Origin: a virus
Virus record (IMG/VR): IMGVR_UViG_3300032242_001581
Span: 1-20,161 of that record
DNA: 20,161 nucleotides
Strand: one strand, 5' to 3'
Under the pieces are notes generated by a model. It was given only the letters and a program-made list of their open reading frames with translations, did no database searches and was not told the origin of the DNA. Below, one piece after another: positions 728-17,474 of this stretch; position 1 is the stretch's first letter; each line of letters opens with the position of its first letter. The position numbers and the translations under genes are program-made.

Positions 728-737
728 GAATAAATAT
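728..737 (-). promoter_or_regulatory. recurring AT motif (ATATTTATTC) inside an inverted repeat before the 139-residue gene
   Basis: The minus strand reads ATATTTATTC 15 nt before the ATG at 712, identical to the element at 238-247. It overlaps the TAA of the methyltransferase gene. It also forms one arm of a near-perfect inverted repeat (713-722 against 728-738, with one bulged base), so the start region may also be folded in the RNA. Confidence 0.35.
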
Positions 738-2068
738 TATTTTTGTTCAAAAAGATAAATATAATCAGGATGTTTGTCAGATTTTAATTTTTGACGAACT
801 CTCTCGTCAGAACAATTAAAGTATTCTGCAGCTTCTATAATTGAATAAAACTCTTTACCTTTACATTGTATGATAGGTAATTCTATACGAATATTATTAT
901 CCCACAAATCTTGCATTTGTTCGTATGTGATATCGGTAGTATCTATTCGTTTCCAATGTCTGTATTTTGGATTATTAGATTCAATATAATTTCTTGCCAT
1001 TGATTCAGTAAAATCCCCACCAATCAATTCCGCTATTTGTTTTGGGTTCTCAAAAGGAATCCCATCTACTTCGTATTTAATATGTGGATTGGTTTCTTCA
1101 CCAATCACTTGCCATTCTTTATATTTGGATTTAGTTGAGCGACATCTTCTTTCAACTTCGGTAGCTACTAATTCATTTGGATTGATATCAATTGCAGCTT
1201 CTCTAAAACTTCTATATTGTTTTCCATCAACACTACATACAAAATTATCACCATTAACAATGTTTTCAGTTGCTATATCAGGATTTCCTTTTACAAATAC
1301 TAATATGTTTTGATGTACCGATGCAATTTTACGATTTCTTTCAAAGTATGTATCAACAACTCTTGAAGCTTGGTGTTGTGAATTAAACAAAATCATATCA
1401 TTATAAAAATGTAAACCGGCTTCTTCACAAGCTCTAATCGTTTTCCAAACTAATCCTTTATACTTTCCTATTTTATAATTACCAGTTGTAGATTGTTCTC
1501 TAACTTCCGATACAACAATAGCAAAGAAACGATTATCTTTTAATTTAGCTGCTGATTTTTTAACAATAGAATAATACTTCTTATCAAATGAATCTTCATC
1601 CATATTTGAAAGGTCTGCTGGATTATCCGTATATTTTTCTAAATCGTAGTAAGGTGGACAGGTAAATACAAAATCTTGTGTATTATCGTATATAGAATCA
1701 ATCACCCATTCACTATCACCTGTAATCCATACGGGTTTTGATGATTGTTTTTTATTTGCTTCAATTTGTTCATCCGAAAGGTCAATACCATTATAGATAT
1801 ACCCCATCTCACTTGCAACAATACCTCTAACACTACCACCTGCAAACGGGTCTAATATTCTACCTTCTTTTGGACAAAACCATTCATACATTTTTTCACA
1901 AAGAGTTGCATCAAATATAGAAACGGTATTATCTTCCCAAAAACGAGATTTTGATTCAGTATTCTCTCTACCCAATTCTGATTGGATATTATAGGTATTA
2001 ATCCACCATCTTTTACGCTCTTGCCATTCTTTAGAGCGAGTATCTAAAATTGAGAAAGGTTTAATCAT
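737..2068 (-). CDS. DNA methyltransferase (CPPY type) with three C-terminal NUMOD-like DNA-binding repeats
   Basis: A 443-residue SAM-dependent DNA methyltransferase, probably modifying an exocyclic amino group (N6-adenine or N4-cytosine). The SAM site DPFAGGSVRG is at 73-82, followed by a GID acidic motif at 94-96. The catalytic loop TCPPYYD is at 136-142, with Cys in the place of the usual Asp/Asn/Ser, and HQNILVFVKG closes the domain at 252-261. Motif order is I then IV. After residue 275 come three tandem units of about 45 residues (278-322, 332-375, 401-440) with the pattern hydrophobic-x-x-x-G-K-x-(F/Y)-x-S/N-x-x-x-A-A, then V/M-R and a closing W. They resemble NUMOD modules of phage homing endonucleases. 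No nuclease motif is present. The gene has its own upstream terminator and host-like promoter, so it looks like an insert in the head module. The target sequence cannot be read from the protein. Confidence 0.88.
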   Translation of the reverse strand: MIKPFSILDTRSKEWQERKRWWINTYNIQSELGRENTESKSRFWEDNTVSIFDATLCEKMYEWFCPKEGRILDPFAGGSVRGIVASEMGYIYNGIDLSDEQIEANKKQSSKPVWITGDSEWVIDSIYDNTQDFVFTCPPYYDLEKYTDNPADLSNMDEDSFDKKYYSIVKKSAAKLKDNRFFAIVVSEVREQSTTGNYKIGKYKGLVWKTIRACEEAGLHFYNDMILFNSQHQASRVVDTYFERNRKIASVHQNILVFVKGNPDIATENIVNGDNFVCSVDGKQYRSFREAAIDINPNELVATEVERRCRSTKSKYKEWQVIGEETNPHIKYEVDGIPFENPKQIAELIGGDFTESMARNYIESNNPKYRHWKRIDTTDITYEQMQDLWDNNIRIELPIIQCKGKEFYSIIEAAEYFNCSDERVRQKLKSDKHPDYIYLFEQK

Positions 2069-2132: not shown

Positions 2133-2948
2133 TTAATTAAAATCAGAATTATAAACCCCACCATATCCATGTATATCTTTATGTGCTGCAGTTTTAGCTT
2201 TTGATGCATTTGGGTCCTCATCGTATAAACTATTGATATATTTATCTTCTATATCTGCTAAATTTCTTCTATAAGCCGCTAATTGAGCCGTACCCTTTTT
2301 TAAATCTGGCATCATAGAAGCTTTTCTTTTAGGGTCTTTTTCTGCAAAATATTTAGCACCCATTGCTTTTTGTTTATCTTCAAGTTCTTTTACTTTTTTT
2401 TGTACCGCCATATATTTTATATACATTTTAGGTATTCCAGCTTCTTCAATTTTTTCTTCAGGTTTTTTACCATTCTTAGTATCATCACCATCAGCCCAAT
2501 CTTCTTTAACTACTCCTTCTGGAACACAATTTGGTACTTGTTTACCATTTTTTGATTTCATTCCAACTTGCTTATATCCTTTCCAACAAGGTGCATTTTC
2601 ATTTACATTTTCACCTTTATACTCATAATAGCCAGAAGAAGCTTGTGTAATATAATTTTCAGCATTTGAAATGTGGTCTTGAATCCAAGCAGGAATATCT
2701 TTTTCATTATCTCCTAATTTCTTTCTTAATTCATAAGCTGCTTTGATAATAGTATCTAATTGATTATGAGCCATATGAACTTCATGGTCACCACCTTCTT
2801 TCTCATGTGATTGAGCTCCTGCATCTTCACCTTCGTTTGTTGGTTTAAATGCTGATGCAAATGGGTTAGAATATACTTTTCCGTATTCAAATTGTCTATT
2901 ACCCATTTTGAAACTACCTTTACCTGCTAAATCAGTTAAACGAATCAT
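2133..2948 (-). CDS. conserved T4-like phage head-module protein, function unknown
   Basis: A 271-residue hydrophilic protein. The N-terminal third is acidic and glycine-rich. A segment DIPAWIQDHISNAENYI (84-100) resembles a helical motif recurring in marine T4-like phage structural proteins. A paired-cysteine stretch, C121-WKGYKQVGMKSKNGKQVPN-C141, resembles a small motif I have seen in similar phage proteins. The C-terminal half (about 160-240) is a charged coiled coil. Residues 167-170 (I-E-E-A) match the T4 prohead protease consensus. The start lies 1 nt after the stop of the preceding gene, so the two are translationally coupled, and a terminator follows. A head-assembly or internal capsid role is inferred from position only. 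Confidence 0.7.
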   Translation of the reverse strand: MIRLTDLAGKGSFKMGNRQFEYGKVYSNPFASAFKPTNEGEDAGAQSHEKEGGDHEVHMAHNQLDTIIKAAYELRKKLGDNEKDIPAWIQDHISNAENYITQASSGYYEYKGENVNENAPCWKGYKQVGMKSKNGKQVPNCVPEGVVKEDWADGDDTKNGKKPEEKIEEAGIPKMYIKYMAVQKKVKELEDKQKAMGAKYFAEKDPKRKASMMPDLKKGTAQLAAYRRNLADIEDKYINSLYDEDPNASKAKTAAHKDIHGYGGVYNSDFN

Positions 2949-3694: not shown

Positions 3695-4294
3695 TTATAC
3701 TATCTCTGTTATTATTTCTCTCATTAAATCCTGTGCTTTGCAGTAATCACCACAAACATCAGTACCAATTTGTTTTAAAGGATTGTAAGACTCATTTACA
3801 GGTACCATAAATGCACCATGTGTTGACGGGTTACTTACAAAATCCCAACCTATTAATTCAAAATCTTCTTGTACTTCTACTTTGTTTCCACTTAAGTTAC
3901 GAGTAGAACCCATACCTCTTGAAGAAATACCCAATAGGATACCGGCTTTTAATAATTCTTTTAAGATATTACCAGATGGTGTAGAAAGAATTTCAACTGT
4001 TCCTACTAAATCATCACCGTCCCAATGAATCTCTCTAACATTATGAGATACATTTTTTAAGTTAATAACAGTAGAATCTGGATGGTCTAATTCACCCAAA
4101 GCTCTTCTTTCCTTAATTAATGTTTCATACTTCTTAGCTTCTCTCATTAAGATTGGCTTAGGATATACTCTACCGTTTTGGTTTTCAGCACCAGCTCTTT
4201 GTAGAACACCTTTTACAATAGTTCTACCACCAGCATCTTCTTGTACTCTACCCTCAAATAAATTTGTTTCTATTAAAAGCGATTTCATTATCAT
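3695..4294 (-). CDS. prohead core protease (T4 gp21-like serine peptidase)
   Basis: A 199-residue protease of the T4 gp21/S77-type family, which matures the prohead by cutting scaffold, capsid and internal proteins. Visible motifs are NQNGRVYP (39-45), the catalytic His in GELDHP (H71), the segment VSHNVREIHWDGDDLVGTVEI (82-102), and the nucleophile region GISSRGMGS (122-130, Ser124 or Ser125). WDFVSNPSTHGAF (150-162) closes the fold. Length is close to T4 gp21 (about 210). Residues 12-15 (L-F-E-G) fit the protease's own consensus, suggesting autoprocessing of the N-terminus. There is a second in-frame ATG at codon 3; the first is kept. It lies in the portal-to-scaffold interval, as in T4. 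Confidence 0.92.
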   Translation of the reverse strand: MIMKSLLIETNLFEGRVQEDAGGRTIVKGVLQRAGAENQNGRVYPKPILMREAKKYETLIKERRALGELDHPDSTVINLKNVSHNVREIHWDGDDLVGTVEILSTPSGNILKELLKAGILLGISSRGMGSTRNLSGNKVEVQEDFELIGWDFVSNPSTHGAFMVPVNESYNPLKQIGTDVCGDYCKAQDLMREIITEIV

Positions 4295-6077: not shown

Positions 6078-7859
6078 TTAAAATTTGGTATCATCTAATA
6101 TATTTTTTTCATCTAAAAGGTCAGATTTTTCAGTTTTTTCACTTAAAATCTTCTTTTTAGAGGATATACCGTTTATATATTCACGTGCTAATTTTTTTGA
6201 ATTGGCATTTACATTTCTACTATCTCTTGCCCTTTCTTTCTCATTCTCTTTATTACCTAATGGGTCTCTACCATACGGATGCTTATCCTTACCATATGTG
6301 TTACCTTCTCGTGGTCTACCACCCTGATTATCCACTATCTCTTGCTTCATTTTTTCAATTTCTTCTTCAACATTAGTTTGTTGAGGTGGATTTGCAGGGT
6401 CTTGTCCTTGTTGTTCTATTGAATTATATCTGAATCTATCTTTAACATCTAATACAATCTTAGCTCTTTCTAAATCAATTTCATCTTTACTCATACCAAA
6501 TACATTATGGTATGCCCAATCAGTAGATAACATATTAAGACCTTTAAGGTCAGTTGCCAATCTTACTTTTTCAGACCATAAATTAACTTTCTCTTGTTCG
6601 TATATTGTAGATGCGTTTGTTAAACTTAATTCAAAATCTGCTAAATCGGCGTCATCCACACCTTTAGCAGCTAAATGAACTACAGCTATTTTAGCCAATT
6701 CACTAACAACCGTTCTTTGTATTCTTTCAATAGTTCTAGCAAAACGAACATCTTCCGCAGCTAATGTAGCTTTACCATTCACATTTTCATCATAAGATAA
6801 ATAAGCCTTTGGTACTCTTAATGCCGCAAATAATTTATTCTTTAAATAATCAATATCTTCGATAGCTGCATAATCCAATCCTTGTAAATTGTTTATTTCA
6901 GTACCACTATCACTACCACGAACTGGTAAGAAGAAATCTTCCGTAAGGTTTTGAATATTATATTTTAAGTTATAATCTCCTGTATTTTGGTCAACAAATG
7001 GAGTTTTCTTCATTTTGTTGATAATCTTCTGCATGTAATTATCCACTTCTTGAGGTGGTATATTACCTATATCAATTTTAAATACTCTTTTTTCAGGTGC
7101 TCTCATAATACGATGGATTAACATCGCATCTTCCATAAGAGTTAATTGTTTCCAAATTCTTCTAGCATTTTCAATCATTGATTTACCATAAGGTAAGAAA
7201 TTGGTATCAGATAACATTCTAAAATGAGCCATCTCATATTCTTCATATTCTTTTTTACCAAATCTATCTAATTCAACTCTATACTTTACATAATTTGAAT
7301 TATTAGGGTCAGTACCTTCTAATCTTTCAGTATTGTAAACAGAATAAGGATGTACATTTACAATACCTGCTTCTGGAGCAATCTCTAATGCTAAAAACGC
7401 ATCACCGTATTTAACTAAATTTCTAATCCAAGGCCATAAATTGAATTCGATGTTCATTACATCATAGAATAAGTTATGAAGCATTTCTCTAATATGCTCA
7501 TTCTTTGATTTAATTTGAAGAACATCACCATATTCATTTTTAGTTGTAGATTCATCTGCATATATATCTAATGCAGAACCAATGATTGGGTCGTTATCCA
7601 TAGCATCATAATCTCTAAAAAGTTCTCTACGAACTTGATGATATGCCATTGATTGAGCCCCTTGTTGAGTCTCATAATAAGAACGCTGTAATTTTGTATA
7701 TCTATCTCTTAGATTTACAAAGTTAGTATTCATTTGACGGTCTTCAAAATCAACCACCTTTCGTTTACCATCTTTACCAACGGTTACGATTGCGTTTTGG
7801 GAGAATAATTTCTTTAACCTACCAAAAAAACTTCTGTCATCTATTTCTTGTTCTGCCAT
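6078..7859 (-). CDS. portal vertex protein (T4 gp20-like)
   Basis: A 593-residue portal protein that forms the dodecameric ring at the capsid vertex for DNA entry and tail joining. Diagnostic gp20-type stretches are DPIIGSALDIYADE (90-103), YGDAFLALEI (151-160), IMRAPEKRVF with IDIGNIPP (251-269), and the NLQGLDYAAIEDIDYLKNKL region (324-343) leading to ALRVPKAYL (346-354). Length is somewhat above T4 gp20 (about 524); the excess is a polar, low-complexity C-terminal tail (about 490-593). It lies two genes downstream of the terminase. Unlike T4, no sheath or tube genes separate terminase and portal, an arrangement shared by other distant T4-like phages. Confidence 0.96.
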   Translation of the reverse strand: MAEQEIDDRSFFGRLKKLFSQNAIVTVGKDGKRKVVDFEDRQMNTNFVNLRDRYTKLQRSYYETQQGAQSMAYHQVRRELFRDYDAMDNDPIIGSALDIYADESTTKNEYGDVLQIKSKNEHIREMLHNLFYDVMNIEFNLWPWIRNLVKYGDAFLALEIAPEAGIVNVHPYSVYNTERLEGTDPNNSNYVKYRVELDRFGKKEYEEYEMAHFRMLSDTNFLPYGKSMIENARRIWKQLTLMEDAMLIHRIMRAPEKRVFKIDIGNIPPQEVDNYMQKIINKMKKTPFVDQNTGDYNLKYNIQNLTEDFFLPVRGSDSGTEINNLQGLDYAAIEDIDYLKNKLFAALRVPKAYLSYDENVNGKATLAAEDVRFARTIERIQRTVVSELAKIAVVHLAAKGVDDADLADFELSLTNASTIYEQEKVNLWSEKVRLATDLKGLNMLSTDWAYHNVFGMSKDEIDLERAKIVLDVKDRFRYNSIEQQGQDPANPPQQTNVEEEIEKMKQEIVDNQGGRPREGNTYGKDKHPYGRDPLGNKENEKERARDSRNVNANSKKLAREYINGISSKKKILSEKTEKSDLLDEKNILDDTKF

Positions 7860-8349: not shown

Positions 8350-9945
8350 CTATAACCATTGTGATAAATCTTCAAATCCATCACCCACTCTCATCTTCCA
8401 AGGGTTTTCATCAGGTTGTGAACCACCATAAATACCTGTATATTGCATGTTTGATGATATACCACCCAATGTTCTTTTTGTAAGGTCAATACCCTCTTGT
8501 CTTAATCTTAATGCGGTATCTCTTACCCATAATGAAATCGATAATGCCATTACTAAGTCATCATTATATCCTTTCATAGCTTCCGCTCTACCATTTATAA
8601 AAATAAATGTAAACAACTCATCTATCAAACGATTAGAACGAATTGTTATTGCTTTTTCTCTGAAATACTCATCTAATTTTGATATAATCAAAGGTCTAGT
8701 CTTAGATGTTGTTGAAAATCCAGCCACCATTTGTTTTTCTTCCGCACGATATTTGTTTCTCATTTGATTTTCTACATCAATATATTTTAAATCCTTACTC
8801 ATATAAAATAAGTTTTTATAATCTCTATCTATACATTGTTGAATACATGCCCATCCAATATTAGAGTTTTCTATTACAAGTAAAGCATCATTATATTCAG
8901 TTGAAAGATTTACTAAAAAGTTTCCAAAATCTTTTGTTTCAATTTTACCTTTATATTCTGCAACTTGAGTTGAGTTCATAATATCAATCACCTGTGCAGC
9001 CGAATAGTCAGCTCCATCACCTCTAGCAACGTCCGCTACTACCATATAAGAACCACCGGCTACTGGATATTCCCATCTCCAAAGATTACCATCAAATCCT
9101 GTTTTTTCAATCGGATTTTGACAATATGTTTCTTTATAAAACATTAATAATTCAGGTTCAATTACAGTTTCACCAGATGATACAAAGTCACAATCACATT
9201 CTTGAGCTGCTTTTTTAGGTCCTAATAATTTTTCTTGCTCATCTCTCCATTTTTGGTCTCTTTCAGGATGCACAGTCCAATGTAATCTAATTGTATTAAA
9301 TGGATTTGTACTTTCTTCTGCACCCAACCATGTTTGGTGAAACCAGTTACCCACACCATTAGGAGTAGAAAGTGCAATACACGCACCACCCGTTGATAAT
9401 GTAGATTGTGCCGCTACCCATATCTCATCAATATCATCAATAAATGCAGCCTCATCAAATATAAGAAGTGATAACGCTTCCGAACGTCCTGCATCAGGAG
9501 AAGAAGCAATCGCTTTAATTTGAGAACCATTTGCTAATTTTAATGAAAGTTTATTATCTTCCAATGAACCACCCTTTAACCAAGATGGAAGTAATTCATG
9601 CATTACTCTTACTTTAGTTACTAAGTTTTTTGCTACATCTTGTTTAGTTGCAATTACCAACACATTAAAATCCGAATTAAATATCATTTTCCAAAGTGCG
9701 TATCCAGCTGATAAAGTTGAGATACCAGTTTGTCTTGATTTCAATACTATATTAAATCTATGGTCTTTAAATTCAGTTAATGTTCTCTCCTGAAATGGGA
9801 AAAGGTGAAAAGGTATTTTACCTCTCACCGGATGTTGAATCATACAATACTTTTTCATAAAATGTATCGGGTCAACCGCACATTTTTTGTATTCTTCTGC
9901 AATTATTTCCTTTAAAGATTTCTTTTGTGTTATACCAGTCGCCAT
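8350..9945 (-). CDS. terminase large subunit (T4 gp17-like packaging ATPase/nuclease)
   Basis: A 531-residue packaging motor. The N-terminal ATPase has the Walker A variant SRQTGIST (70-77), Walker B LLIFDEAAF (160-168) with catalytic Glu165, and the coupling motif STPNG (193-197). The C-terminal RNase H-fold nuclease has ADVARGDGADYS (304-315; Asp305), VIENSN (357-362; Glu359) and GYNDDLVMA (459-467; Asp462/463) as the acidic triad. Length matches the gp17 family (about 550-610 in T4-like phages, slightly short). It is separated by 1 nt from the preceding gene. No intein or intron interrupts it, although this gene is a frequent insertion site in phages. Confidence 0.96.
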   Translation of the reverse strand: MATGITQKKSLKEIIAEEYKKCAVDPIHFMKKYCMIQHPVRGKIPFHLFPFQERTLTEFKDHRFNIVLKSRQTGISTLSAGYALWKMIFNSDFNVLVIATKQDVAKNLVTKVRVMHELLPSWLKGGSLEDNKLSLKLANGSQIKAIASSPDAGRSEALSLLIFDEAAFIDDIDEIWVAAQSTLSTGGACIALSTPNGVGNWFHQTWLGAEESTNPFNTIRLHWTVHPERDQKWRDEQEKLLGPKKAAQECDCDFVSSGETVIEPELLMFYKETYCQNPIEKTGFDGNLWRWEYPVAGGSYMVVADVARGDGADYSAAQVIDIMNSTQVAEYKGKIETKDFGNFLVNLSTEYNDALLVIENSNIGWACIQQCIDRDYKNLFYMSKDLKYIDVENQMRNKYRAEEKQMVAGFSTTSKTRPLIISKLDEYFREKAITIRSNRLIDELFTFIFINGRAEAMKGYNDDLVMALSISLWVRDTALRLRQEGIDLTKRTLGGISSNMQYTGIYGGSQPDENPWKMRVGDGFEDLSQWL

Positions 9946-9946
9946 A

Positions 9947-10630
9947 TTAATCTTTTGGTGCTTTGATTAAATCGTAGTTTTTATTTTTTAATTTATCCCA
10001 AGCTTCATTTCTCAATTTGGTTACATCTTCAACTTCTTTTTCAAAATTCATAATATCAAGAAGTATTTCAGCTTTCATAGTTTCTGTATCTTTCTCCATA
10101 GTCCACTTCTCACTTTCACCTTTTTCATTAATATATTCGTATTCTTGCTTAACATCATTGTAAGCTTGTTTAAATCTAGCTATTACATCTTTTCCGTGGT
10201 CAATCATATTAGAATATATTTTATAATCTTCATATTCTTTCCACAATCCATCATATTTTATTTGAGCTTCTTTCTTTGTAAGACAGTGTAAACAATATCC
10301 AGTTTTAGATATTAACTTCTTATCAACTCTACCAACTTTAATTGTTTGACAATCTTCTGCTTTGCAAGTATTTAATCTATCTAAATACGCTCTAGCTTCT
10401 TCAAACACATCACCATGTTCAGACACGGAAATTTTACCGGCTTCTAATTGTTTCCACTTTTTACCATTAGAATCGGTCCATTCCTCACCAACTTCCCTTT
10501 TTACATTTTGATTTTCTGCTCCTGCAAATGAAATTTGAGTATCCTTTTCGTATTCTCCACCTGTTAAAACCATATCAACCAACTTCTTACGAGTTGGGTG
10601 CATGAACTTTTTATTAAATTCTTTTGTCAT
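9947..10630 (-). CDS. zinc-motif protein immediately upstream of large terminase; possible small terminase
   Basis: A 227-residue protein. The N-terminus (FMHPTRKKLVDMVLTGG, 9-25) looks like a short helical module. GEEWTDSNGKKWKQLEAGKI (48-67) is a probable beta-hairpin. Four cysteines (C89, C94, C113, C116: CKAEDC and CLHC) likely bind zinc. Residues 120-215 are a long Lys/Glu coiled coil. Small terminases such as T4 gp16 lie directly upstream of the large subunit and have a central coiled coil, so position and coiled coil are compatible with that role. The zinc site is not typical of gp16, and I recognise no helix-turn-helix, so the assignment is tentative. The 1-nt spacing implies coupled expression with the large terminase. 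Confidence 0.6.
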   Translation of the reverse strand: MTKEFNKKFMHPTRKKLVDMVLTGGEYEKDTQISFAGAENQNVKREVGEEWTDSNGKKWKQLEAGKISVSEHGDVFEEARAYLDRLNTCKAEDCQTIKVGRVDKKLISKTGYCLHCLTKKEAQIKYDGLWKEYEDYKIYSNMIDHGKDVIARFKQAYNDVKQEYEYINEKGESEKWTMEKDTETMKAEILLDIMNFEKEVEDVTKLRNEAWDKLKNKNYDLIKAPKD

Positions 10631-10682: not shown

Positions 10683-13676
10683 TTAATTATCGAAGAATAT
10701 ACCTAATATTTGATTTAAAGGTGCAAATGCTCCAGTAAGTTTGTAAGTGTTACCACCATATACAAATACTATACCTTCATTTGGTACAATTTTATCAAAT
10801 CCACCCAAAGCTTGCATTCTACTTAATTCTAATTTAAGTTTTTCAATCTTTTTAGGGTCACCACTTGCTTTTACTTGTGCTATTGTTGATTGTAATCTAG
10901 ATACCATTTGTTTAGTAGCTTGTGTTGGATTTGCAGTTAATACTGATGTCATAAATGATAATACTTCCGCACCTACACCTAAGAATATCTCCTCAAATCT
11001 CATTAAGTTATCTTTGGATATTTTAGATTGGTCTTTTTTATCAACACCATCTGCCCATGCTCTTATTTTATCATCTTTAATATCTGCAATACGGAAACTC
11101 TTATCACCAAACGCCCATCTTTTAACTAATCCTATTTTTTGTTGAGCATCTAACTTTTTAGCATTTTTATCTACAAAGTTTGTCCACCAAGCCTGATGAT
11201 AATCTGCTACACCATCTTTATCACTCAATCCAAATTCAGATTGTAATTTAGAAATCATAGAAATATACTTTCCTTGTTTAGAAGAAAGGTCTTGTGTTTT
11301 TGGTAATGATTGCATTGGAGGTCCCTGTATAGTATATTGTGATTGAACATGCTGATTTACTTGCTTAATCATTCCGGCTAATACTTTAGCTGCATCTTGA
11401 TTTTGTCCAATTACATTACCATCCTTATCATATTCAAAAGTACCATGAAATACCAATAAAGGTTGTCCATAAGGAATTACATTTACTGATGTTGGGTATA
11501 TTACTTCCAAATTCATAAAACATTTACCATCTTCAAATATCTTTTTTCTTTGTGCTTCTGATAATGAACCTATTGCTTTTGAAAGGTCATTCATAGCAAA
11601 ATTATATGCATCAGTTAATCCACCTCTACCTGCAAATTTATCAGCTACTTGTCCTATTGTCATAGCACCAGCACCACTATTTTTAAGATGTGATTTATTA
11701 CGAGCTGCAACCAATCTACCATTTACCCAACTAATTGCTAATGCCTGTCCATCAGTTTTTTCTCTTGCAGTTTCTAAATCACCATTAAGTGCTTTAGTTA
11801 CAATATTTTTTAAATCACCAAATGTAAGATTCATTTCAATATCAAATGGATGATGCATATGTCCATAAGCACCACCTTCGGTTAATAGTGATTCATTAAT
11901 ATTATCTTTTACTGGAAATCTTAACTTTACACTTTTAGCAATGTGTCTTTCATCATCTTTTATAGTTTCTCCATCAATATCAACACTTGGGTCCATATTT
12001 ATTCTTTCATCTGTTCCAGGCTGATTATCATATTGATTTGGATATACATCGGTAGTACCGGCTGTATTTTTACCATCTCCTTTTACAAAATCGGCTGGTA
12101 ATTTATATCCATATTTTAATGTACGATTATATTTGTGTACACTATCATCGTGATTATCAACAGGAAGTTTTGCTTGATTTTTTAATCTTTTTAATTCATG
12201 TTCAGATGGAGTTTCGTGATATGTTGCCCAACCTGGTAAATCTTTTGTATAATAACCAGCTCTATCATAATCATTCCAATCTGCATTCCATTGATATCCA
12301 GTTACAGTATTTCCATCATTATAAAAAGCATCTGCTCCACTATATTCTAATAAACAATGTTCTTTTAATTTATCATAGTATCTAATATCTTCCCATAAAT
12401 GGTCCATAGCTATTTCAGCTGCATAACGGATATCAGATGTATGTTCCATCTCAATTTTAATACCTTTTTCTAATTGTTTTTTAACATATTCTTTTGCAAA
12501 TTGTTTTGGGTCATAGTATCCTTTAGGGTCCCATTTTTTAGCCAAATCAATTAAAGTTTTATTTTTTGCTAATCCACCAGGTATTAAATCTTCATACTGT
12601 TTAGTATTATCATTTCCGCATTTATGACAAACATATGGGTCATCTCCACCATCGGATAAATCCCAACTCCAACCACATTTTGAACATTCTACTTTTTTAT
12701 AATCAGAATCCCAATTTTCTTTTACAGGTTCATATTGGTCATCATTTTTTTTCTTTAATTTTTTAGCAGTTTTTTTAACATCCTTTGGGTCAGGTGCTCC
12801 ATTAATATATCCAGAAGGTAAACTTAATCCAGTTCCAATCCCACCAGGGAATCCACTAGCAGCTCCACCTGCACCAGCAGCACCAGTTCCAAAACCAAAT
12901 TCTTTTAATTCATCCTTTTTAGGTATTCTAAATGTTACTGCTTTTTTACCATTGATTGTTGGCATACCATATTCATCCTTACCAATATCTTTAACTAATA
13001 CTTTTTTGTTTTTGAATTTACCCATTAATAAAGTATCTCCAACTTTTACATTTAAACCAATTTCTTCATTAATACATTCTTTAAGTTTCTTTAACTTAAG
13101 AGTAATCATTTTGAATATTTGGTCATCAAACTTAGGATATGCTTTTGTAAAATTCTTTTTTCTTTCAGCTTCAGTACCAGCACTTAACCAATATCTAACA
13201 TCAGTACCACTAATAGGATTTGATGTTGCAGGTGCTGCATATACATAACCTCTATCTAAATAAGGTTCAGTTACTTTACCTGTATATGGTGTGAAATATT
13301 TACCACCTAATCTTTGTTCATCCTTTTCACCAACAACCGTTATAAATCCGGTTTTATCTTTATTATATTTGTTAAGGATTTCAGTTGGAGCATATGGATT
13401 TTTTACATTAACAATTTTAGATGATGGTATTCCAAACATCTTAGTCATTATTGCTTTCTTCTCTGCAAAACCGAATGGTGAATTTGAACTATTTGTTACA
13501 TTAGAAGTTGCGATATAAACATTATCTGCACCAAACTTCCTTACTAATTGCTCATAAGTTGCGTAATGTCCCTTATGAAAAGGTTGAAAGCGGCCAGAAT
13601 AGACAACTATTACTTTGTCTATTGAAGCCGCTTCCAATAATATTGATTCTACTAAAAAATTTGCTAATCCGTTCAT
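10683..13676 (-). CDS. NMNAT-like nucleotidyltransferase / zinc ribbon / DUF5661-like / KxDG ligase-like fusion protein
   Basis: A continuous 997-residue multidomain protein. Residues 20-200 form a Rossmann-type adenylyl/cytidylyltransferase: GRFQPFHKGHY (28-38) holds HxGH (34-37) and ISGTDVR (155-161) is the second signature, as in NMN adenylyltransferases. A Gly/Ala linker (261-290) follows. A zinc ribbon has C331, C334, C350 and C353 (CSKCGWSW...CHKC). Residues 361-437 (IPGGLA...EMEHTSDIRYAAEIAMDHL) resemble DUF5661. After a Tyr/Asp-rich spacer, residues 600-997 carry ligase-superfamily motifs: REKTDGQA with Lys640 (KxDG), RNKSH (659-663), NLEVIYP (722-728), NEGIVF (966-971) and YKLTG (978-982). 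Potential gp21-type sites lie at L13-L14-E15|A16 and L598-T599-E600|G601, the latter just before the ligase-like domain. Substrate unknown; NAD or RNA metabolism is the leading guess. The NMNAT-like call is firm, the ligase-like call moderate. Confidence 0.82.
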   Translation of the reverse strand: MNGLANFLVESILLEAASIDKVIVVYSGRFQPFHKGHYATYEQLVRKFGADNVYIATSNVTNSSNSPFGFAEKKAIMTKMFGIPSSKIVNVKNPYAPTEILNKYNKDKTGFITVVGEKDEQRLGGKYFTPYTGKVTEPYLDRGYVYAAPATSNPISGTDVRYWLSAGTEAERKKNFTKAYPKFDDQIFKMITLKLKKLKECINEEIGLNVKVGDTLLMGKFKNKKVLVKDIGKDEYGMPTINGKKAVTFRIPKKDELKEFGFGTGAAGAGGAASGFPGGIGTGLSLPSGYINGAPDPKDVKKTAKKLKKKNDDQYEPVKENWDSDYKKVECSKCGWSWDLSDGGDDPYVCHKCGNDNTKQYEDLIPGGLAKNKTLIDLAKKWDPKGYYDPKQFAKEYVKKQLEKGIKIEMEHTSDIRYAAEIAMDHLWEDIRYYDKLKEHCLLEYSGADAFYNDGNTVTGYQWNADWNDYDRAGYYTKDLPGWATYHETPSEHELKRLKNQAKLPVDNHDDSVHKYNRTLKYGYKLPADFVKGDGKNTAGTTDVYPNQYDNQPGTDERINMDPSVDIDGETIKDDERHIAKSVKLRFPVKDNINESLLTEGGAYGHMHHPFDIEMNLTFGDLKNIVTKALNGDLETAREKTDGQALAISWVNGRLVAARNKSHLKNSGAGAMTIGQVADKFAGRGGLTDAYNFAMNDLSKAIGSLSEAQRKKIFEDGKCFMNLEVIYPTSVNVIPYGQPLLVFHGTFEYDKDGNVIGQNQDAAKVLAGMIKQVNQHVQSQYTIQGPPMQSLPKTQDLSSKQGKYISMISKLQSEFGLSDKDGVADYHQAWWTNFVDKNAKKLDAQQKIGLVKRWAFGDKSFRIADIKDDKIRAWADGVDKKDQSKISKDNLMRFEEIFLGVGAEVLSFMTSVLTANPTQATKQMVSRLQSTIAQVKASGDPKKIEKLKLELSRMQALGGFDKIVPNEGIVFVYGGNTYKLTGAFAPLNQILGIFFDN

Positions 13677-14148: not shown

Positions 14149-15297
14149 TTATAGGAATTTTTCTAATTCTTTTATCACCATTTCTGATGTTATTGATTTG
14201 GTACATTCAAATTGTCTATCCGTTCCTTTATGGTCAGGACACCAATTCCAATCCGATGGGTCTAATCTTATTCTATTAAAACACCCTTCACATTTTCCTT
14301 TTGGAGCAGTAATTCTTACACAATCTTGCATTTCAGCCCAATCGTATGAAAATCCACTTATTAAAACGGTTGGAACATTTAAAGCCCAACTCAACCAACT
14401 CAATCCACTACCTATACCAATAAATGCTTTAGATTTTATCATTTCATCCATTACCAATTCAATAGGGCCGTTTGGATGTTTAACCACTCCTGTTGGGAGT
14501 TTATTTCCCATATAGTTATCACCCTCTTTAGAAACTAACTTAACGATATACCCCCTCGAATTCAACCAGTCCACTACATCTTGCCAACCCTGTGGATTGT
14601 TCCAAAATTTAGATTGAGCAGTACCAAATACACCAATGCAAACCTGTTTATCGTTTGGTTTAATTTTAGGATTTCTCTTTTTAATTAATGGTTTTACCTC
14701 TTTATATTCTAATCCTAAAATATCAGATGCCATTTTTTGTAAAGTAACCGATTTAGGGTCATTTGGATTTTTATAAAAATTAACTGAACTATCATCATTA
14801 TAATATAATCCAATTCCATACATTGCATATAAATTTGTTACATTAACTCCTGGTTCTACAAATTCTAATTCCGGATATTGTTCTTTAAACATACCATTCA
14901 TAAATGTAGATACAACCACTTTGCAATTATATTTTTTTCTAAACTCCTCTGCGTAAGGAAACCATGCCATACTATCACCCAATGCTTTAGAATCTAATGC
15001 AATATAAACTCTTTTACCAATTGGATTAAATAAATGCTCATACCATAATTTACCATTTTCATAAATCTTAATATGCCAGTTTACAAAATATTCAATACTA
15101 CATTTAGACCAACAATTATTTTTAATAGTAGATTCGTAAATGATTTTACTAGTATTACTATTAATAAATTGTATTTTATATTCCGCTTCTTTTGGACCAG
15201 TAATTTCTACAAAAGCTCCTTTTACAAAATGCAATGATGCTTTGTTTTTTATTTCTACAATATTATTTTGATTTTTTTGTAAATTATCGTAAATCAT
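14149..15297 (-). CDS. TibC-like autotransporter-type heptosyltransferase (BAHT family)
   Basis: The start is placed at ATG 15297-15295, which overlaps the stop of the upstream gene as TAATG. A TTG nine bases earlier is less likely. The 382-residue product has a beta-rich N-terminal region (about 1-90) and a GT-B glycosyltransferase fold. Typical BAHT features are RVYIALDSKALGDSMAWFPY near 96-115, the segment VCIGVFGTAQSKFWNNPQGW near 219-238, IGIGSGLSWLSWA near 293-305, and a C-terminal cysteine motif C-x2-C-x13-C-x11-C (CEGC...WCPDHKGTDRQFEC) that binds iron in TibC. BAHT enzymes transfer ADP-heptose to serines of beta-helical autotransporters. The gene follows the glycosyltransferase fusion and lies near the tail fibre, so the acceptor may be a phage protein or a host surface protein. 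Donor and acceptor are inferred. Confidence 0.87.
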   Translation of the reverse strand: MIYDNLQKNQNNIVEIKNKASLHFVKGAFVEITGPKEAEYKIQFINSNTSKIIYESTIKNNCWSKCSIEYFVNWHIKIYENGKLWYEHLFNPIGKRVYIALDSKALGDSMAWFPYAEEFRKKYNCKVVVSTFMNGMFKEQYPELEFVEPGVNVTNLYAMYGIGLYYNDDSSVNFYKNPNDPKSVTLQKMASDILGLEYKEVKPLIKKRNPKIKPNDKQVCIGVFGTAQSKFWNNPQGWQDVVDWLNSRGYIVKLVSKEGDNYMGNKLPTGVVKHPNGPIELVMDEMIKSKAFIGIGSGLSWLSWALNVPTVLISGFSYDWAEMQDCVRITAPKGKCEGCFNRIRLDPSDWNWCPDHKGTDRQFECTKSITSEMVIKELEKFL

Positions 15298-17474
15298 TAA
15301 CTCCAAGTTTTAACTGTTAAATCCAAAAGTGAAAATCCTTCTGCCTGTTTACTATACATTTTATTAGTAGTATATCTATTTTTAGGATGATTATAAAATA
15401 CATGATTGTACCATAAATCACCAACATCCCAACCACAATCTTTTAATCTGTCCATCCACCAACTTTTAGTTCGGTTTGGAATTAAATAAGCGTGGGCTAA
15501 ATCTTGATTGTATGCAGTTTTTGTAAATAAATCATCTATCTTATCTTTACTAATAGATGGGTTATCAGCCAAACCAATAAAATATACATCATCTCTTTCA
15601 GATATAAAACATGCCCTATGTACTATTTCAACAAATTCTTCTAAGCCAGTATAAATAAATGCATCAGCTTCAAATACTAAAGTGTAATCAAAGTTTTCTT
15701 CATCCATAGTTTCTAATGCCATTCTATGTGCCAAATAACATCCATAATGCCTACCAGTCATCCATCCCAATCCAGCACCAGGATATAATTCACCAGGTTT
15801 ATTATCTTTACTAATGTGCTCTGGTCTTCTACAATTTTCGGCAGGCGCTAATCCTTCGTATGGTTTATTTACAATTGGTTCATAGTACATACCATATTTT
15901 TCCAATTGTTTAAGAGATTGAATAGATACTCTTTCTCTCATATCATCTGGTCTGGTTAACATATGTTTTATTTGAATACGAGGTTTTTTTCTTATCCAAC
16001 TTCTAAATCCTTTTGTAAATTGGTCATAGAAAAACTCATCCGCTGCTTGATTAACACCAGAGAAAACACCATAATCATCTCCACTAATAATACCTCCTGG
16101 TTTTACTTTATTGTACCAAAAATGAATATCATCTTTAACATCTTCGTAAGAATGTCCCGCATCAATCATTATAAAATCAATACTATTATTTTGAAATTGA
16201 TTAGCTGCATTATGGGATGTATCTTTAATCGTATCAAATGTTCCAAAATTATTAGATAAAACTGTGTTATCTATAAACTCATAAAATATATCACCACTAT
16301 ACGCATTTACAATATTCTGATGTAGTTCCTCATCTTCAGTCCCTTTCCAAGTATCAACTGCTGTAAATTTAATATCTTTACCTGATTCTTTTATTTTTGT
16401 TGCTAAATGATTTGTTGATTTACCTAACCACGCTCCAACTTCTACAAATGTTTCACCACCTCTTGCATTCTCAACCATTTCATTATATAAATCCTCATAC
16501 GCAAACCAACCAGGTATTTCATTAAATTCAGGTTGTAATTTTTCTAATATAATTCTTTTTGTTAATTTTAAATCATCGTTGATATACGTTACTAAAGGAT
16601 TATTATCGTATGTATCTAAATAGGTATGCAATCTTCTAAAAATAGATGGCATTTCAAATGAAAGTGCCTCTTTAATTGAAAGTGGATTTAATTCTAATAA
16701 TGATGAGAAGTAAAATAAATCACATGCAGCATAAAATTTTTCTACATCATTTCTTTCTCCCCATACAATACAATTATCTGGCTTATGTTTCATAAGAGGT
16801 TTCCAATAGTCCTCATAGTTCATTGCCTGATTTCCTACAAAGTGAAATTTAATTTTATACTTTTCTAATTGTCTTGCAATGTTGAATATTTCTCCTTGAT
16901 TTTTTCCTTGCCCAAATAATCCAACATTTAATACATGCTTCCAAGTTGGGTCTAATCCTAATTCTTTTTTAGCTTCATTTTTATTGAAATCATATTTTTC
17001 AACTGGGTATTCCCATACATCTAATTCAACTCCCAAATCGGCATCTTCAAATCTTTGTTTACTCCATTCAGATACTAAAACATATTTATCTGGTTGATAA
17101 ACAATTTCAGATGGATTTGTAAAAGAACCATGTGTAGTTGCAAGAATAAAATAATTTCTATCTTTTTTAAAGATTTGGTCTAATACAAATGGTGCTAAAT
17201 CAAATTGTGGAATTTCCTGAAAATGTATAATATCAGGATTAAATGCTTCAATTACCTTTAATACTTCAGATTTATCTTGTCCTAAAGTATGAACAGGAAC
17301 TAATTCTTTAATTCTATTTTTTTGAACTACATAAGCGTTTCCACCACTATTGTTTATTTCAACAACTTCGATTTCAAAATCATTATGAAAATTCTTTACC
17401 TGTTTATAGGTATATTGAGGTTGTCCTCCCGTAGAAAGATGGGGACAGATGTAAAGTAACTTCTTTTTAGACAT
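15297..17474 (-). CDS. trifunctional glycosyltransferase (GT4) / SAM methyltransferase / GT25-like glycosyltransferase fusion
   Basis: A continuous 725-residue protein with three domains. Residues 1-320 are a GT-B, GT4-type glycosyltransferase: ICPHLSTGGQPQY (9-21) is the N-terminal loop, HVLNVGLFGQGKNQGE (180-195) starts the donor domain, and ELNPLSIKEA (261-270) gives the E-x7-E motif. Residues 325-490 are a class I methyltransferase of the TylF/Methyltransf_24 style: FVEVGAWLGKST (343-354), acidic Asp374, IDFIMIDAGHSYEDV (432-446) and PGGIISGDDY (459-468), suggesting sugar O-methylation. Residues 495-725 are a GT-A-like domain reminiscent of GT25/LPS transferases, with GRHYGCYLAHRMAL (574-587) and FEADAFI (601-607) as the probable metal/donor site. 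It overlaps the heptosyltransferase gene by one base and has its own host-type promoter. Sugar and acceptor are unknown. Confidence 0.87.
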   Translation of the reverse strand: MSKKKLLYICPHLSTGGQPQYTYKQVKNFHNDFEIEVVEINNSGGNAYVVQKNRIKELVPVHTLGQDKSEVLKVIEAFNPDIIHFQEIPQFDLAPFVLDQIFKKDRNYFILATTHGSFTNPSEIVYQPDKYVLVSEWSKQRFEDADLGVELDVWEYPVEKYDFNKNEAKKELGLDPTWKHVLNVGLFGQGKNQGEIFNIARQLEKYKIKFHFVGNQAMNYEDYWKPLMKHKPDNCIVWGERNDVEKFYAACDLFYFSSLLELNPLSIKEALSFEMPSIFRRLHTYLDTYDNNPLVTYINDDLKLTKRIILEKLQPEFNEIPGWFAYEDLYNEMVENARGGETFVEVGAWLGKSTNHLATKIKESGKDIKFTAVDTWKGTEDEELHQNIVNAYSGDIFYEFIDNTVLSNNFGTFDTIKDTSHNAANQFQNNSIDFIMIDAGHSYEDVKDDIHFWYNKVKPGGIISGDDYGVFSGVNQAADEFFYDQFTKGFRSWIRKKPRIQIKHMLTRPDDMRERVSIQSLKQLEKYGMYYEPIVNKPYEGLAPAENCRRPEHISKDNKPGELYPGAGLGWMTGRHYGCYLAHRMALETMDEENFDYTLVFEADAFIYTGLEEFVEIVHRACFISERDDVYFIGLADNPSISKDKIDDLFTKTAYNQDLAHAYLIPNRTKSWWMDRLKDCGWDVGDLWYNHVFYNHPKNRYTTNKMYSKQAEGFSLLDLTVKTWS

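Follow-up and report, generated by a model that had tools for sequence, protein, structure and literature searches.

A 997-residue protein is encoded on the minus strand of the window analysed here, a stretch of 20,161 nucleotides of viral DNA (IMG/VR record IMGVR_UViG_3300032242_001581, positions 1 to 20,161), and its gene is located in a T4-type head and packaging module. We lean towards reading this protein as a precursor of several enzymes that a T4-like aquatic phage makes late and in association with its head, of the kind known as 'polyvalent proteins'; it would be packaged into the head, cut there and injected, and would serve RNA repair, counter-defence and the supply of NAD. The protein very probably carries the two enzyme folds assigned to it, a nicotinamide mononucleotide (NMN) adenylyltransferase (NMNAT)-like domain near the N-terminus and an RNA-ligase-type domain at the C-terminus; that it is packaged and cut is probable, judging from its leader and cleavage motifs; and RNA repair together with NAD supply is a tentative proposal for its purpose. 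Both folds, the conservation of the catalytic motifs, the modular architecture, the leader and site motifs and the linkage to head genes were computed directly.

Two nucleotidyltransferase domains in one chain

A previous sequence-only reading of this DNA had described one uninterrupted 997-residue protein in a packaging module, with an NMNAT-type domain, a four-cysteine zinc ribbon, a DUF5661-like segment and a KxDG ligase-like domain. Every motif that it named was found at its place in a minus-strand open reading frame (ORF) with an ATG start and without internal stops (Table 1), the plus strand being stop-rich across the same positions; the ORF was also intact in dozens of independent contigs. 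The four cysteines of the zinc ribbon were confirmed, Pfam DUF5661 matched residues 400-439 (E 1.2e-7, exceeding the curated cut-off), and terL, the portal gene and the head maturation protease gene were all found nearby on the same strand.

The NMNAT-type assignment of the N-terminal domain was upheld by profile as well as by fold. Pfam CTP_transf_like matched residues 25-161 (E 1.3e-7, exceeding the curated cut-off), the HKGH and ISGTDVR motifs were canonical, and among the sequences of solved structures the domain matched archaeal and NadM NMNATs. In the full-length model, which had a mean predicted local distance difference test score (pLDDT) of 63, residues 20-196 were mostly at about 70-90, and a Foldseek search with this model retrieved NadM 2r5w (E 9.8e-4, probability 1.00), followed by a series of NadD structures. 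For residues 20-196 as modelled, assignment to the HIGH-type nucleotidyltransferases, with NMNATs as the nearest matches, is well supported.

The ligase-like assignment of the C-terminal domain was borne out by invariant motifs and by the predicted fold. Motif I KxDG (KTDG), the motif III Glu (within NLEVIYP, 722-728), motif IV EG (within NEGIVF, 966-971) and the motif V Lys (within YKLTG, 978-982) occur in superfamily order, and K640, D642, G643, E724, E967, G968 and K979 were invariant across 60/60 non-redundant relatives of the domain, down to about 22% identity, an invariance because of which the motifs are not attributed to chance. The same 60-member alignment revealed a family-specific invariant opening, GGAxGHMxHPF. 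A second Lys is usual in ligase motif V; it is absent here, and motifs III and IV are set apart by a large insertion, helical and roughly 170 residues long.

The sequence-only reading had named structure prediction of residues 600-997 among its checks, and the model of this domain (pLDDT 86, predicted template modelling score 0.82, residues 585-604 disordered) presented a nucleotidyltransferase fold. In VIA-align comparisons with solved structures, the first 44 rows held nothing but mRNA capping enzymes and RNA or DNA ligases; the top match was T4 Rnl1 (root-mean-square deviation 4.1 over 191 residues; Z 8.6, a score close to values reachable by unrelated models), and Naegleria RNA ligase, TbREL1 and fungal Trl1 were also matched. 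Among predicted viral structures, relatives of the domain itself ranked first and the named rows below them were mostly RNA ligases. Pfam gave no match to the C-terminal region of the window protein on its own, RNA_ligase (PF09414) weakly touched 26 of the 60 members (best E 0.0029), and no PHROGs family covered the domain. An hhalign comparison with T4 Rnl1 placed K640 on K99 and E724 on E159, at a non-significant E of 0.11. Since the match list is uniform and the motifs are invariant, the assignment of the modelled residues 601-997 to a ligase-type nucleotidyltransferase with RNA-ligase affinity is convincing despite modest single scores; by analogy with these ligases, the domain may seal RNA.

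Matches of the ligase profile to eS6 ribosomal proteins among PDB sequences were chance-like, of biased composition and restricted to the helical insertion, and were set aside, as were a sub-threshold match of LigA to KxDG in the same comparison, and PgdA_N and similar Pfam matches in the helical insertion, which were taken as chance.

Leader and [LI]xE motifs around a variable middle

Relatives of the ligase domain are encoded in at least 586 IMG/VR entries. A working set of 225 distinct proteins comprised three groups, with ligase-domain identities to the window protein of 77-99% (group 1), about 45-53% (group 2, marine) and about 22-26% (group 3, compact); both enzyme domains were present in 110 of the 121 complete proteins. 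In the phage collection, sizeable matches were obtained only in the cultured Microcystis phage Mel-JY01 (639 residues) and two uncultured huge phages, while short middle modules were all that was shared by four records of Flavobacterium phages and one further huge phage. Another six loci came from GTDB assemblies, among them stand-alone and HIGH-fused forms on 400-kb contigs classed as uncultured Firmicutes and Erysipelotrichaceae. Real gene splits in L022, L077 and L100 were considered and dropped, sequencing errors being equally likely. The sequence-only reading had found the architecture beside the terminase unfamiliar; the terminase neighbourhood stood, and uniqueness did not, as relatives occur in hundreds of viral contigs. 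Among the relatives with at least 4 kb of downstream flank (n = 146), terL was located downstream on the same strand in 144 (73/73, 46/46 and 25/27 for groups 1, 2 and 3), and Mel-JY01 shows this order too.

Group-1 proteins start with MxxLxxFLVE[ST]ILxE/A (a slash marks the putative cut), and group-2 starts are similar (MNKLTEWLxxPFLxE/D and alike) though the first module differs, being KOW/SH3-like, a kinase or APRVP. In 43 distinct leader windows, which were chosen by a pattern itself requiring [LI]xE, P1 was Glu and P3 was Leu or Ile in all 43, P2 was free and P1' was mostly Ala; an unfiltered leader list agreed. In 135 distinct contexts ahead of the ligase, picked solely by the downstream GGxxGH motif, P3 was Leu or Ile in 134 and P1 was Glu in 129, with P2 again free. 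In Mel-JY01 the ligase is preceded by IIAE/GG. The entropy at P2 was 2.6-2.8 bits, against 0.0-0.9 at P1 and P3, the background frequency of [LI]xE was 1.0% per position, and a fuller pattern, E-S-[IL]-[LI]-x-E/[AG], was common to the leader and pre-ligase sites. In the window protein, 9 of 12 [LI]xE sites were found in linkers, against 3.5 expected, and the leader and pre-ligase sites fell in low-pLDDT linkers of the models.

The T4 sequences show the same arrangement in internal proteins IPII and IPIII, which begin MKTYQEFIAE/A, and in IPI, which has ITE/A at residue 19. Major capsid proteins of the relatives carry LLDE/A, LVTE/A or LITE/S at a place that presumably matches the cut of the T4 capsid protein. 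The [LI]xE pattern at both sites of the family is that of the T4 prohead protease, and both would be candidate targets of a related enzyme. The T4 protease cleaves C-terminal to Glu (PMC5694885), and the T4 internal proteins have only the targeting sequence in common (PMC3012670).

A hydrophobic-x-E motif also stands directly before other modules of the family, N-terminal or internal, and modules moving among architectures carry the motif along; APRVP is preceded by ILAE, FLTE, GLSE or PVIE, and the kinase by VMKE, NVNE, KIQE or ILQE. Stand-alone ligases have leaders of their own (MKFLKSYEEFLNENLILE/GG in L003 and MKSLIQYISE...QPILE/GG in L286), and in L144 both enzymes are encoded by adjacent genes, the ligase-bearing second ORF having its own leader. 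This layout matches what would be expected of a string of formerly separate internal head proteins.

Both ends of the proteins are conserved, and the middle (205-585 in the window protein) is freely variable in length and content, the linker between the enzyme domains being about 400 residues long, variable and largely disordered in the model. Among 60 extension or middle segments, DUF5661 was detected in 14 and AAA_33/Zeta-type kinases in 7. These kinase modules occur in group 2, and phmmer against PDB did not settle their type, the candidates being polynucleotide, riboside or zeta-toxin-like kinases. Further modules in the extensions or middles were PAP2 and a zinc-protease-type domain, and L002 has a ParB-like N-terminus. 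An open-ended protein of 2094 residues (L132:3-6284) consists of a CCA-adding enzyme (E 1e-32 to CCA-adding enzymes), an HD domain, a HIGH domain, a long middle and the ligase. In another relative (L256:5862-6200) the type I Thoeris inhibitor Tad3, a label based on Pfam alone (E 5.6e-33), lies between the N-terminal domain and the ligase, flanked by VLTE/S and YITE/GG. The themes of these modules are RNA repair, NAD and counter-defence, such as are discussed in papers on phage NAD networks (PMC9503650) and polyvalent proteins (PMC5512222).

Gene neighbourhood

Table 1. Features of the 997-residue protein and of neighbouring genes, with positions in the window.
Feature	Position	Strand	Remark
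Full 997-residue gene: leader, HIGH nucleotidyltransferase, variable middle and ligase-type domain	10683..13676	-	
Putative capsid-targeting leader, residues 1-15, MNGLANFLVESILLE/A, terminal [LI]xE site	13632..13676	-	cf. T4 IPII/IPIII MKTYQEFIAE/A
HIGH-superfamily nucleotidyltransferase, NMNAT-like, residues 20-196 (HKGH 34-37, ISGTDVR 155-161)	13089..13619	-	
Small beta module KVGDTLLMGKFKNKK, residues 204-255, INE/E ahead	12912..13067	-	Recurs in relatives as first module after leaders
Four-Cys zinc ribbon, residues 327-360 (C331, C334, C350, C353)	12597..12698	-	Weak HypA-type zinc match only; differs among relatives
DUF5661 module, residues 372-439	12360..12563	-	
Putative prohead-protease site, residues 596-600 SLLTE (LLTE/GG), in predicted disordered linker ahead of ligase	11877..11891	-	
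RNA-ligase-type nucleotidyltransferase domain, residues 601-997 (KTDG 640-643, E724, EG 967-968, K979)	10686..11876	-	
227-residue protein without assigned function, between the 997-residue gene and terL	9947..10630	-	Position kept in several relatives
terL, T4-type terminase large subunit	8350..9945	-	
Portal protein, T4-type gp20	6078..7859	-	
Head maturation (prohead) protease, gp21-like	3695..4294	-	phrog_207, E 3.1e-48; predicted processing enzyme

From high to low coordinates, the cluster consists of the 997-residue gene, the 227-residue protein, terL, a 149-residue protein, the portal, three small proteins and the head maturation protease. Directly upstream of the packaging genes (14149-17474, minus strand), a GT9-like protein and a 725-residue fusion of group-1 glycosyltransferase, Methyltransf_24/TylF and GT25-like parts are encoded, which are retained in some relatives. 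A DNA methyltransferase-like protein (737-2068, minus strand; phrog_12517, phrog_498) adjoins the head genes. The stretch at 2133-2948 (minus strand) includes a CWKGYKQVGMKSKNGKQVPNCVP module (phrog_9737/phrog_4359), which was also found between both enzyme domains of L051, a further sign that head-cluster proteins share modules.

The 907-residue gp088 of Flavobacterium phage immuto (L280:4132-6855) is annotated as NadR and reads as a PolB-like nucleotidyltransferase, a HIGH domain and a metallopeptidase. It is located upstream of terL, the same neighbourhood as that of the window gene, and several of its small neighbours have leader-like starts. No ligase domain was detected in it, and it was treated as a parallel case and not as a member of the family.

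Proposed mechanism, alternatives and significance

According to the reading we lean towards, the gene would be expressed late together with the head genes, the N-terminal leader would take the protein into the prohead, as the capsid-targeting sequence does for T4 internal proteins, and the gp21-like prohead protease would cut after Glu at [LI]xE, taking the leader off after E15 and freeing the ligase after E600, with further linker cuts probable, perhaps at E204 and E444. The freed modules would be retained with the DNA in the head and then injected. During the first minutes in a new host, residues 601-997 would adenylylate K640 and seal RNA breaks, one example being tRNAs that defence nucleases of the host have cut, while NAD+ or some related dinucleotide would be made by the NMNAT-like residues 20-196. 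The middle would be the place where small modules for counter-defence or nucleic acids are exchanged. Packaging, cutting and injection are what we infer from sequence patterns, and the substrates (RNA and NMN), together with an anti-defence role and the defences it might target, are the most speculative part of the proposal.

Several observations weigh against it. The single scores of the ligase-type domain are modest; besides the Z value given above, its Foldseek matches to PDB were not individually significant (best E 0.035), and neither were its profile comparisons with T4 Rnl1 and Rnl2. In groups 2 and 3 (L131-L265), GxHH replaces HxGH while xSGTxxR is kept, and given this replacement NMNAT activity may not extend to the whole family. 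Of 19 records of relatives, for the most part partial, a single one held a gene for a NadV-type nicotinamide phosphoribosyltransferase, a count that is listed here yet is evidence neither way. Glu is missing before the ligase in 11 of 206 relatives (MGG or CGG), perhaps reflecting another protease specificity or a loss of processing, and the N-terminal leader is absent from most group-3 proteins; because of these two observations packaging or cutting cannot apply to every member of the family. The EGG motif is absent from L002, and the site statistics were drawn from related sequences with no correction for phylogeny. The sequences lacking the Glu read ELLLMGG (L168, L177, L181, L206, L209, L210 and L284) or [QH]LL[LMV]CGG (L225, L236, L237, L239 and L263).

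The sequence-only reading had offered, as one possibility, that NAD is made and used locally within one polypeptide. In such an intact bifunctional enzyme, the NMNAT domain would supply NAD+ to the NAD-dependent ligase joined to it. Both folds do occur in one chain, the fusion is kept in hundreds of contigs, and most of the complete proteins (110/121) hold both domains; however, the two are separated by a long, variable and disordered linker of some 400 residues bearing a protease-type site before the ligase, the middle differs in length and content with other enzymes spliced into it, and stand-alone or separately encoded ligases occur, free of NMNAT. The use of NAD by the ligase fared no better, as Pfam detected no NAD-ligase Ia domain ahead of the KxDG core, where residues 501-608 are predicted to be disordered, and the nearest folds were ATP-dependent RNA ligases. 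We consider such an enzyme improbable, and the leader and cleavage motifs, which had gone unnoticed in the earlier reading, probably shift the interpretation towards a head-packaged polyprotein.

A protein that is not delivered to the host and helps late in morphogenesis or packaging, its ligase-type domain working on DNA ends or joining proteins near the terminase, would fit the tight linkage to terL and portal, and T4 gene 63 (RnlA) is annotated both as an RNA ligase and as a tail fibre attachment catalyst. Such a role is unlikely, since the leader and [LI]xE sites resemble internal head proteins and not tail or motor parts, and modules such as the Thoeris inhibitor, the kinase and the CCA-adding enzyme fit delivery into a host better than assembly. 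Somewhat less unlikely, though still doubtful, is a head-packaged polyprotein acting on other substrates, with a HIGH domain that is not an NMNAT (transferring, for example, AMP or CMP to another phosphorylated group) and a ligase-type domain that AMPylates or caps RNA or protein. The PHROGs label 'cytidyltransferase' on relatives, the change from HxGH to GxHH in groups 2 and 3, the YKLTG motif V without its usual second Lys and the helical insertion between motifs III and IV all point that way, whereas the best structural matches of the HIGH domain were NMNATs and the fold lists from solved and viral structures were filled by RNA ligases.

The putatively head-packaged precursor that we favour shares with the T4 internal proteins (IPI, IPII and IPIII) a short N-terminal leader ending in [LI]xE/A and a gp21-type protease in the same head cluster, but it is far larger and multi-enzyme and has an internal second leader-like site and swappable modules. 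Polyvalent proteins (Iyer et al. 2017, PMC5512222) are likewise single phage polypeptides, encoded near head or terminase genes, in which many domains related to conflict are joined and for which injection is predicted; the T4-type [LI]xE junctions between modules distinguish the window family and are new here. In that paper, a word search did not find the combination of a HIGH-type NMNAT with an RNA ligase ('NMN' gave 0 matches), and ATP-grasp RNA ligases are mentioned there as other phage proteins.

The ligase-type domain has in common with T4 Rnl1, Naegleria Rnl, TbREL1 and T4 Rnl2 the KxDG lysine, the motif III Glu, motif IV EG, the motif V Lys and the core fold, but differs from T4 Rnl1 and other RNA ligases in its identity of about 10%, its helical insertion, its GGAxGHMxHPF opening and its lack of a Pfam or PHROG family. 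The HIGH fold and the HxGH and ISGTxxR motifs are those of NadM and NadD, including the phage NadM NatV, whereas the window gene has no Nudix or riboside kinase fusion, is placed in a late head cluster and has many relatives with GxHH. Like NARP1 (Adps and Namat; PMC12774641), the phage enzyme could in principle rebuild NAD+ against a NAD-depleting defence; NARP1 consists of two genes, whereas the virion would bring in the window enzyme in finished form. The individual elements have all been described before, namely phage RNA ligases and NMNATs, polyvalent proteins, targeting sequences and internal proteins; the combination, the repetition of a targeting/cleavage signal as a module boundary and the ligase family appear to be undescribed in the open papers and collections searched.

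A more general view, which we find possible while holding it with reserve, is that T4-like aquatic phages share a loading platform. A single late gene would string together cassettes for an RNA ligase, an NMNAT-like enzyme, a kinase, a CCA-adding enzyme, a Thoeris inhibitor and further functions, with the capsid-targeting/[LI]xE signal bordering each of them. Its product would enter the prohead as an unbroken chain, be cleaved there and then be injected, giving a counter-defence and RNA-repair kit that acts before phage gene expression, and its ligase would represent an unnamed RNA ligase family. The ligase domain constitutes a widespread conserved family, for which no Pfam or PHROG entry of its own was found. 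Because a known Thoeris inhibitor is already there in one relative, the protease-framed modular layout may offer a route to new counter-defence proteins, by reading the modules between the conserved leader and the ligase. If the proposal is true, enzymes that make NAD and seal RNA enter the host together with the DNA of hundreds of environmental T4-like phages, which would account for how a phage meets NAD-depleting and tRNA-cutting defences at time zero.

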